A stretch of 7,717 nucleotides of DNA. It comes from Candidatus Desantisiibacteriota bacterium (lineage in GTDB: Bacteria > JACRDZ01). The stretch is taken from contig JACQWU010000033.1 of NCBI GenBank assembly GCA_016209155.1, positions 10,521 to 18,237 of the forward strand. Direction: 5' to 3'. The translations under genes and the position numbers were made by a program. Under the pieces are notes generated by a model. The model searched no databases. It saw only the letters and a list, made by a program, of their open reading frames with translations, and was not told where the DNA came from. Positions 1,543 to 7,588 of the stretch are shown here, in pieces; the stretch's first letter is position 1, and the number at the start of each line of letters is the position of its first letter.

Positions 1543-2619
1543 TCAATTCCCCATCAGCTTTGTAAATTCCCTGAAAAGATAATCAGAATCATGCGGTCCT
1601 GGAGAAGCTTCCGGATGATATTGCACAGAAAAAGCAGGAATTTTTTTACACCTGATACCTTCCAATGTTTTATCATTTAAATTAATATGCGTAAGTTCCA
1701 CATTATCCTTACTAAGAGAATCTATATCAACGCAGAAACCATGATTCTGAGCTGTTATTTCCACTTTCTGAGTCTCTAAATTTAACACCGGATGATTACC
1801 GCCCCGGTGTCCAAATTTTAGCTTATATGTTTTCCCTCCCAGGGCAAGTCCCAATATTTGATGTCCGAGACAAATCCCGAAAATAGGTTTTTTACCCAAC
1901 AACTTACTTATATTTTTTATCGCATATGTTACAGCAGAAGGATCACCGGGTCCATTGGAGAGAAAAATTCCGTCAGGATTCATTGCCAGTACTTCTTCAG
2001 CGCTTGTCTCGGCTTTTACAAGCCGCACATTACAATCATGGGAAACAAGCCGTTCGATTATATTATATTTTATTCCATAATCATAAGCCGCCACCCTGAA
2101 TTTCGCATCTTCCCTGCCCCATAAGGTTTTTGGTTCACCGGTAACTTCTTTAACAAGGTCCTGTCCGATAATTCCCGGTGAGCTGTGTATTTTGTTCAAT
2201 AATGAATCTTTATTGAAATCCAAAGTGGAAATAATTCCCTGCATTGCCCCGCGGATACGGATATGCCTTGTGATAGACCGTGTATCTATACCTTCAATTG
2301 CTATAATATTATTTTCAACCAGATATTCATGAAGACTGCAATTAGACCGCCAGTTACTGCAAATTTTCGAATATTCCTTAACAATAAGTCCCTTTGCAAA
2401 TATTTTTCTTGACTCAACATCTTCCTTATTTATACCGTAATTACCGATAAGAGGATAAGTCATAGTAACGATTTGTCCGTAATATGAAGGATCAGTAATA
2501 ATTTCCTGATACCCTGTCATACTGGTATTAAAAACTACTTCCCCGACACTTTCTCCATGCGCTCCGAATGCTTTCCCTTCAAAAAAAGTACCATCTTCCA
2601 GTACAAGATATGCTTTCAT
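1543..2619 (-). CDS. carA: carbamoyl-phosphate synthase small (glutaminase) subunit
   Basis: The 358-aa protein has the family's usual length and layout. The N-terminal CPSase small-subunit domain (about 1-135) contains [18 protein letters not shown] (34-51) and the [12 protein letters not shown] segment (110-121). The C-terminal class I glutamine amidotransferase domain (about 174-358) contains SNGPGDP (221-227), the nucleophile elbow GICLGHQ with Cys250, and [13 protein letters not shown] with His335 and Glu337 completing the triad. It hydrolyses glutamine and passes ammonia to CarB, which makes carbamoyl phosphate for arginine and pyrimidine synthesis. The start is supported by GAGG 7 bases upstream and a full-length N-terminus. 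A near-consensus promoter lies about 110 bp upstream. carB, often the next gene, does not follow; the TPR gene does, so CarB must be encoded elsewhere. Confidence 0.97.
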
Positions 2620-4168: not shown

Positions 4169-4879
4169 ATGAAACCGATAGTAGTTATTCCAACTTATAA
4201 TGAACAGGAAAACATTCGTAAGTTGGTTGAAATCATACTCAAGCTTGAACCGCAGTTTTCAATAATAATCGTTGATGATAATTCACCTGACGGAACAGGG
4301 AAAATTGCCGATGAATTAAAAAACGAAAACCCTGGCAGAGTATATGTAATTCACAGGCCCGGAAAAATGGGACTTGGAAGAGCATATATAGACGGATTTA
4401 AATATGCTTTATCGCTTGATGCGGATTATATCTTTGAGATGGATGCTGATTTTTCACATTCTCCTGAAAAACTTCCTGTATTCTTAAAAGAAATGCAGGA
4501 TGCGGATATTGTCATCGGATCAAGATATATAAATGGTGTAAGTGTAATTAACTGGCCTCTGCGCCGCCTTTTTTTAAGCGTGCTGGCCAGCTATTATGTC
4601 CGTTTTATAACAGGAATGAACTTACATGACAATACAACAGGTTTTAAATGCTTCAAGAGAAAAGTCCTTGAAAATATTAAACTTGATTCAATAGATTCAG
4701 ACGGATATTCATTCCAAATCGAAATGAATTACAGAGCCATAAAAAAGGGATTTAAAATTAAAGAAGTCCCCATAATATTCATTGACAGACACAGCGGTTC
4801 CTCTAAAATGTCAAAAGCCATTATAAGAGAAGCAATTATTATGGTATGGAAACTCAAGTTTGGACTTTATAAAAAATAA
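4169..4879 (+). CDS. GT2 polyprenyl-phosphate mannosyltransferase (dolichol-phosphate mannose synthase-like)
   Basis: The 236-aa protein is a single catalytic domain of the DPM1 type. In order it shows IPTYNEQENI (7-16), VDDNSPDGT (35-43), HRPGKMGLGRAYIDGF (62-77), the metal-binding MDADFSHSPE with Asp92 and Asp94, GSRY (117-120), NWPLRR (128-133), TTGFKCF (156-162), DGYSFQIEM (178-186) and the C-terminal DRHSGSSKMS (206-215). Enzymes of this family move a hexose, usually mannose from GDP-mannose, onto a polyprenyl phosphate at the cytoplasmic membrane face, giving the donor for periplasmic glycosylation. No C-terminal membrane domain is present, as in the short soluble or peripheral forms. 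The AAGGG ribosome site about 6 bases upstream is weak. Other GT2 sugars (glucose) are possible. It ends 8 bp before the end of the convergent glucosidase remnant. Confidence 0.9.
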   Translation: MKPIVVIPTYNEQENIRKLVEIILKLEPQFSIIIVDDNSPDGTGKIADELKNENPGRVYVIHRPGKMGLGRAYIDGFKYALSLDADYIFEMDADFSHSPEKLPVFLKEMQDADIVIGSRYINGVSVINWPLRRLFLSVLASYYVRFITGMNLHDNTTGFKCFKRKVLENIKLDSIDSDGYSFQIEMNYRAIKKGFKIKEVPIIFIDRHSGSSKMSKAIIREAIIMVWKLKFGLYKK

Positions 4880-4907
4880 AAAACCCCTTATTCCGATTTT
4901 TTTGTTT
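4867..4907. terminator. possible bidirectional terminator between convergent genes
   Basis: The genes converging at 4879 and 4888 are flanked by an A-tract (about 4871-4883) and a T-tract (about 4898-4908), separated by the short CCCC-containing middle. Transcripts from either side would carry an A-rich arm pairing with a U-rich arm and would end in U-rich sequence. The stem is A-U only, so termination strength is uncertain. Confidence 0.3.
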
Positions 4908-7588
4908 TATTACGCACTCCGAGTTCCTGGATTAAATTTGCCACAAGTCCGGTCCATCCGGTTTGGTGGCTTGCGCCAAGGCCTGCTCCCGCCCCGGGCT
5001 TTCCAACTACTGCTCCGAAAATAGCGCCAAGGAACGTCGCTCCCAAAAACCAGAGTACGCCAATGGCAAGGCCGACAGCAGCGCCTATCATCTACCTTAA
5101 AATCATCTCCCAGATATTGATTGAATTTTCGTAATGATTCGATTATCATATAGTTTATTGGGAGCCACACAGGCCCGCGCCAGTTGGAATTCCCGCCCAT
5201 TAATTTTACATAATTAGATTCCGCTGGTTCATATTTAACTTGAAAATTCATATTATTAAGTTTTACATCATTGTTTTCAAGGTGGTATTTAGATAAGGAT
5301 CTAATGCCAAAAGGGCTTAAAAATTCACTCTTGTTCAGCATTCGCCGCAGAATTTTAGGTAATTTTGTTTTGTCTACTATAGATATTGTTCCATTTATAA
5401 TATCCGGAGCCTTATCAGTTATTACCTGACGTATCAAGTCCTCCATATTTATGTTCGCGTTGTCATCAATTAAATCTTTGCGATTTTTTGCAAACCAGCG
5501 CAAGAATCCATATAAATTATAAAATGAATTGGCATCCAGAACCTTTTGTTTTATTTGCTCAATAGCAAAAAGCGGAACAAGTCCGACAATAGAAAATACT
5601 TTTAATCTTCCGTAGGTATTGGCACAGTCCATAAAAAATCCCTCTTCATCATCCCAGAGACCATTATTGCCGATAGTATTCATTGATTTGCATATATACA
5701 TGAAATGTGTAAGATATTTACGCAGGGAATCTTTATATTGAAACGCTGCTTTATTACCTTTTTTATCATTTGAATCTTTAATTTTCACATCAATAAGTTC
5801 GTTTGCAATTTTCATCATATTCAGGCAGAACATTGCCACCCATGCTGTTCCATCTGCCTGCTCAACTTTTTTCCCTGATGGATCTTTATCAAAAATGCGA
5901 ATGTTATCTAAACCTAAAAAACCTCCTTCAAAAATATTATTCCCGTCATCATCCACTTTATTAATCCACCAGGTAAAATTCATATTGAGTTTATTAAAAA
6001 CACGTTCAAGAAAAAGTGTGTCTCCCTGCCCGTATATCTCTTTTTCATTTTGATATACCTGCCATGCCGCCCATGCATGCACAGGCGGATTAATATTACA
6101 GAAATCCCATTCATATGCCGGTATCTGGCCGTTTGGATGCTGATACCATTCCATTACAAGCAATTCCAGCTGATGTTTGGCAAAATCCGGATCTATAATT
6201 GAAAGTGTGGTAGTGTGGAATGCAAGGTCCCATGCGGCAAACCATGGGTATTCCCATTTATCGGGCATTGAAATAACATCTTTGCAGTACAAATGAGACC
6301 AGCGTATCATTTTATCATCGTTTTGATGTTCATATGAAGGCGGCACCTTATCTCCATTCAGCCAGCGGTGTACTATAAGATAATATAATTGCTTGCTCCA
6401 CAGCATTCCTGAAAAAGCCTGACGCTGAATCCGGCACATATCGGACTGATAAGCATCTTTGGTTTTATCATAAGGACAAATCGCGTCATAAAATTGATCC
6501 GCTTCCTGCGCTCGGCGCTCAAATGTAGAATCAAAACCATCAAATGGACTGGATAAAAGCCGGTCAGAAAGTCTCAATGTTACAACTTTACTTTCTCCCG
6601 GAAAAAGCTGCAGTATATAATAAGCAGATGCTTTTGTTCCAAGTTTTTGCGGATTTATTGTTAAGTTTGTGCCGCTTGAGATTATATAATCATTTATCCC
6701 GTCTTTTACAAATTGAGATTGATTATCCCCCCATCCAAAACGTTTAAAATTTGTTTCATTTTCAGTAAACAAAACATCATTGCTGTTAAAACAATACAAC
6801 CATCGTTGTGCGAGTATAACAAAATCTTTATTTGTCAGTGGATCTAATCCTTTAATATCGGAGATTTCAATGGTTTGAACGTTGTTAAAATTATTTCTTA
6901 ACTGTAAGGAAGGTTTTATATAATTATTATTCCAGCCCCATGTGTTGCGAAACCACAACGTTGGCAATAAATGTAAAGTCTTCGTCTCATTTCCCCTGTT
7001 GGTGATATTTATTTTAATAAGAATATCTTCAGGTGTATTTTTAGCATATTCAATTAAAACATCGAAATATTTGTTTTGATCCATAACACCTGTATCTATC
7101 AGTTCAAATTCAAGAGGATTTTTGGAATAACTGTTTTTAGTAAGAACCTCATATGGATATTCATAAGGATATTTATAAAGATATTTCATGTATGAATGTG
7201 TCGGAGTATTATCAAGATAGAAGTAATACTCTTTAACATCTTCTCCGTGATTACCTTCATTATTAGTCAAACCAAAAAGCCTTTCTTTTATGATTGGATC
7301 TTTACCATTCCACATGGCTATGCCAAAGCACAACAATTGCTGAATATCAGATATCCCCGCAATTCCGTCTTCACCCCAGCGATACACCCGTGAACGGGCA
7401 TGGTCATGGATAAAATCATTCCACGCATTCCCGCTTTGCTTATAACATTCACGCACAGTTCCCCATTGCCGCTCACTTAAATATGGGCCCCAATGCCTCC
7501 ATGTTTGAGTAATTCCATCACTTGTTAAACGTTTACGTTCTTCCGTATTATTAATTTTTTTGAGTTTATAATAATCTTGATTTGTCAT
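4888..7588 (-). pseudogene. GH63-like (MGH1-type) glucosidase, disrupted near the 3' end
   Basis: From ATG 7588 (AGGAGGG 7 bases upstream) an intact frame encodes a typical member of the large bacterial GH63-like 'glucosidase' family. It shows WGPYLSERQWGTVRE (33-47), HDHARSRVYRWGEDGIAGIS (61-80), KERLFGLTNNEGNHGEDVKEYYFYLD (101-126), TLWFRNTW (210-217), YPWFAAWDLAFH with the presumed general-acid Asp454, and NWRGPVWLPINY (802-813). Family similarity stops at GDDFKV (827-832). The same frame then runs 60 residues of Cys/Arg/Trp-rich nonsense to a stop at 4910. The family C-terminus, [19 protein letters not shown], instead lies in the +1 frame and ends at TAA 4888. Roughly 60 expected residues, including the presumed catalytic Glu region, are missing. 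The family acts on alpha-glucosides or related oligosaccharides, and the upstream gene is a probable debranching enzyme. As read, the product should be inactive. Confidence 0.85.
4936..5092 (-). other. GC-rich replacement segment within the glucosidase gene
   Basis: About 61% of bases 4941-5090 are G or C, far above the AT-rich surroundings. In the +1 frame, after an in-frame TAG just before ATG 5091, it encodes a Gly/Ala-rich hydrophobic stretch ([20 protein letters not shown] and on to GAVVGKP, about 32 residues). This has no counterpart in the glucosidase family. It then joins the real family C-terminus at about 4990. The hydrophobic part resembles a glycine-zipper membrane helix, such as those in small DUF456-like membrane proteins, but it is too short to assign. 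The left edge of the intact gene abuts a 7-bp direct repeat, ATCATCT at 5087-5093 and 5102-5108. A separate 67-aa gene is unlikely because its C-terminal half is glucosidase sequence. Confidence 0.6.

Follow-up and report, generated by a model that had tools for sequence, protein, structure and literature searches.

We analysed a window of 7,717 nt that covers bases 10521-18237 of a scaffold 18,237 nt long. The scaffold belongs to a draft genome obtained from a metagenome (3.08 Mb in 352 contigs, 78.8% complete). The part of the window considered here holds two convergent genes, a GH63/MGH1-like glucosidase and an intact family 2 glycosyltransferase whose end lies 9 nt from the stop codon of the glucosidase (Table 1). 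The long reading frame of the glucosidase (7588-4910, minus strand) has 892 codons with no stop before 4912. Its first 832 codons are intact, and the remainder is composed of sequence that the family does not have.

Table 1 Features of the glucosidase locus, in window coordinates
Feature	Position	Strand	Evidence
Family 2 glycosyltransferase, intact, convergent	4169..4879	+	PF00535, E 2.8e-35; end 9 nt from glucosidase stop
Family C-terminal tail of the glucosidase	4888..4989	-	+1 frame, resumes at GAGLGASHQ (4989); natural stop 4890-4888
Out-of-frame extension of the 832-codon frame (DDRRCCRPC...), not family sequence	4910..5092	-	ORF translation
Replacement segment, ~103 nt, GC-rich, unrelated to the family	4990..5092	-	GC 0.58-0.63 vs 0.33-0.34
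GH63/MGH1-like glucosidase, intact N-terminal 832 codons	5093..7588	-	PF22422 and PF03200 matches, homologue identity

Other features of the scaffold were noted alongside this locus. The product of a minus-strand gene at window 117-749 matches nothing in Pfam or NCBIfam; it is a membrane protein with several helices and a tail rich in Lys, Pro and Ala. By eye, we recognized a palindrome-bearing intergenic element (GTAGGGGTTCGAT..ATCGAACCCG...GGGCTTGATAAATCAAGCCCCTAC) that occurs twice, at window about 1467-1522 and scaffold about 6964-7020, and a dispersed intergenic repeat with arms like CCTTCAGCCTTCAGCCTAAATACC in at least three copies (window about 2810-2910, scaffold about 4780-4855 and 10141-10225). 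A region at scaffold about 1560-1790 (minus strand), also judged by eye, resembles a frameshifted remnant of a YgiT/MqsA-type zinc-finger gene without a start codon. Beside a gene for an AprB-like ferredoxin, a gene for an AprA-like FAD subunit (scaffold 8380-10134, plus strand) carries a single interrupting TGA in frame at 9181-9183, where the closest homologue (48% identity) has Gly. Selenocysteine at this site was unsupported, given that Gly and the lack of a SelB match above the cut-off, and the TGA more probably reflects a nonsense change or an error in the consensus.

The assignment of the glucosidase rests on matches to two family models and on homologues. The reading frame matched PF22422 with an E value of 3.9e-20 (73 bits, cut-off 27) and PF03200 over positions 361-431 of 492 (29.1 bits, cut-off 22.4). 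The intact part shares 44-57% identity with homologues. These come from Firmicutes, Bacteroidota, Nitrosomonas, Bryobacteraceae and Verrucomicrobiales, and plasmid-borne homologues occur in cyanobacteria, Rhizobium and Burkholderiaceae. The closest homologue is that of Ruminiclostridium sufflavum. Proteins annotated as GH63-like 'glucosidase' of about 890-910 aa (R. sufflavum, cyanobacterial and Rhizobium plasmid copies) share with the window gene 45-57% identity over residues 8-833, both Pfam matches and the C-terminal tail. Eukaryotic processing alpha-glucosidase I (GH63; 4j5t, 7t66, 5mhf) also gave a profile match over the C-terminal segment, but its identity is only 12-15%. A comparison of the same locus in relatives yielded nothing, the gene being absent from the three same-phylum genomes searched.

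We then located the break in the family sequence. The initial annotation had placed it after GDDFKV at codon 832 (base 5093), followed by about 100 bp of unrelated sequence and a tail that resumes at about 4990 in the +1 frame. Our alignments agree on each point: nearly all of those with homologues end at residue 830-833, which is GDDFKV (bases 5110-5093), and the intervening stretch and the restart of the tail lie where Table 1 gives them. The size of the loss was obtained from two conserved landmarks. In all 13 homologues covering this part of the protein, SNWRGP and GA[SG]HQTGWT are 99-100 residues apart. The window has them starting at 5188 and 4977, a distance of 211 nt against 300 expected. 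About 64 residues (192 nt) have been lost, close to the 60 or so estimated earlier, and ~103 nt gained. The net change of -89 nt shifts the tail to the +1 frame. The window gene has lost both the residues and the frame, whereas the GH63-like homologues keep the spacing. The possibility that homologues naturally lack the segment, which the initial annotation had named as grounds for dropping its claim, is rejected, since all 13 retain it. The lost segment was also sought on the other contigs of the same genome and was not found.

The tail is part of the same glucosidase gene: over 25 residues it shares 88% identity with the corresponding part of the R. sufflavum homologue, it ends at the natural position and it is followed by an intact glycosyltransferase gene. 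At the DNA level, 4989-4946 matches a Rhizobium glucosidase gene. The identity of 88% over 25 residues, together with a lesion seen in no homologue, rules out a chance resemblance.

The lost stretch contains LFYEYFHGDNG of the homologues. A homologue-profile alignment places its Glu opposite that of YENYSPIDGHGTGAEHFTGWT (yeast glucosidase I) and that of WEQYNPETGKG (Chaetomium glucosidase I), the YENY/WEQY Glu, in line with the earlier suggestion that a catalytic Glu had gone. Previous reports revealed that the C-terminal Glu of GH63 enzymes is the general base, represented by Glu419 in mycobacterial glucosylglycerate hydrolase (PMC6608630), and that the equivalent position is common to GH63, GH78 and GH37 (PMC7263609). 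In the window, the segment that should carry this residue ahead of the GWT motif is replaced. The match to PF03200 ends at model position 431, compared with 488 in the R. sufflavum homologue, a difference that is weak alone as a second homologue also reaches only 429. A structural model of modest confidence was made for the R. sufflavum homologue (mean pLDDT 64.6); in it, helices 830-842 and 860-874 fall within the lost stretch, ahead of the last helix 892-910. When this model of the homologue was compared with solved structures in view of the (alpha/alpha)6 barrel expected of the family, its nearest neighbours were GH63 glucosidases I, with Z about 15 over 552-607 residues and rmsd 4-6. From what is known of the family, the glucosidase as written should be inactive, because the Glu aligned with the GH63 general base falls in the lost segment.

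Next, we considered the origin of the replacement. The segment itself has a GC content of about 0.58, and the 105-nt island around it, at 0.63, exceeds every other such stretch in the 373 kb of the genome that were sampled (mean 0.33, sd 0.074). Its composition is unlike the genome, which is one of the signs of a local assembly error. In the +1 frame it encodes a hydrophobic, glycine-zipper-like peptide with a weak match to PF13436, below the curated cut-off. GC content alone is no proof of foreign origin, because a peptide rich in Gly and Ala by itself increases GC at the first two codon positions. The GC3 of the segment was 0.51 over 35 codons, which only 0.6% of the scaffold's coding windows reach. 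The replacement resembles a fragment of a coding sequence whose source organism is richer in GC. We found no support for a copy from elsewhere in the genome, by template switch or repeat: no protein copy appeared at E values up to 1, nor any significant DNA copy, and the replacement shared exact words of no more than 10 nt with the scaffold and 13 nt with 40 sampled pieces. Phage, plasmid, E. coli and vector-like DNA gave no significant match, viral contigs likewise, and no known phage family was found. A search for the donor peptide in 386 genomes was not informative, the best other hit having an E value of 0.013 and 48-52% identity over 25 residues.

Two kinds of event had been proposed for this locus, a deletion with replacement or a wrong join of two molecules, either recent or artificial, and nothing in our data contradicts either. 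We regard a local assembly error in the deposited sequence as the best reading, at a probability of roughly 0.57, with a recent, real deletion and replacement as a close rival. On this reading the gene itself is an unremarkable GH63-like glucosidase, and its last catalytic segment was replaced only in the assembly, where a wrong path was taken or a short scaffold gap was wrongly closed. Between GDDFKV and GAGLGASHQ the assembly would have skipped about 192 nt of true sequence and taken up ~103 nt belonging to a different molecule in the community, which would move the true tail to the +1 frame. The missing segment, the shifted frame, the alien composition and the scaffolded draft state of the genome are observed; that the organism lacks the replacement is what we infer. 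The earlier proposal needs one refinement: after a single join of two molecules the sequence could not return to the same tail, so any artefact must take the form of a local A-B-A error or of a gap that was closed wrongly.

Several observations argue for such an assembly error. The draft is in 352 contigs and gapped. N runs were present in 9/41 sampled pieces of the genome (one wholly N, 2774 nt, possibly withheld sequence; the other runs 9-106 nt), and 21 N at scaffold 10500-10520, directly before the window and inside the AprB-like gene, indicate that the contig is itself a scaffold. The replacement has an alien GC content and no other copy in the genome. In addition, there is no sign of decay after the event, because the 832 codons contain no other stop, as had been noted before and as our ORF scan agrees, and no frameshift, and the tail is still 88% identical. 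It has been reported that local assembly errors corrupt protein-coding genes in uncurated metagenome genomes, more so with IDBA-UD (PMC7111523). The window resembles those cases in having, on an N-gapped draft scaffold, a gene corrupted by a short, genome-alien stretch; their defining sign, however, is a lack of support by any single read or spanning pair. Against an assembly error, the A-B-A return would take either two wrong transitions or a gap closed wrongly, which is rarer than a simple misjoin, and no collection that we searched contained a donor sequence.

A real and recent inactivation, in which ~192 nt were deleted and ~103 nt of foreign or distant DNA captured to leave a young pseudogene, is a serious possibility, although we put it somewhat below even odds. 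It would account for the precise join, whose flanks are continuous with the gene. Possible routes include double illegitimate (microhomology) recombination during DNA uptake, or end joining. In Acinetobacter, transformation reportedly integrates short foreign segments by double illegitimate recombination, which counts in favour of a real event. The AprA-like gene, as a second damaged gene on the scaffold, would fit a genome with broken genes, but its TGA may equally be a consensus error. The absence of decay elsewhere in the glucosidase gene speaks against a real event, as does the failure to find a donor in the same genome, phages, plasmids, E. coli, viral contigs or the 386 genomes. The more specific proposal, that a short foreign patch was captured by double illegitimate recombination in an uncultured phylum and caught before decay, appears unlikely.

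It is highly improbable that the join, or the 67-codon +1 frame (4888-5091) alone or through frameshifting, makes a working protein. The replacement and the tail do lie in a single open frame, which has an ATG at 5091. A frameshifted product, however, would still be missing the penultimate helix of the barrel as well as the catalytic Glu. The 67-aa product has no family match above cut-off, its last ~33 residues are the glucosidase tail plus a C-terminal extension, and the arrangement occurs in no homologue.

Together, these results indicate that the locus is not a new biological system but a draft-genome mistake, as the preferred reading of a local assembly error has it, or a young broken gene. 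They also call for caution, as automatic annotation would list an 892-aa glucosidase where the deposited sequence is without the catalytic base. If the event is real, it would document a gene lost only recently and offer a clean case from nature of a short foreign patch being captured.
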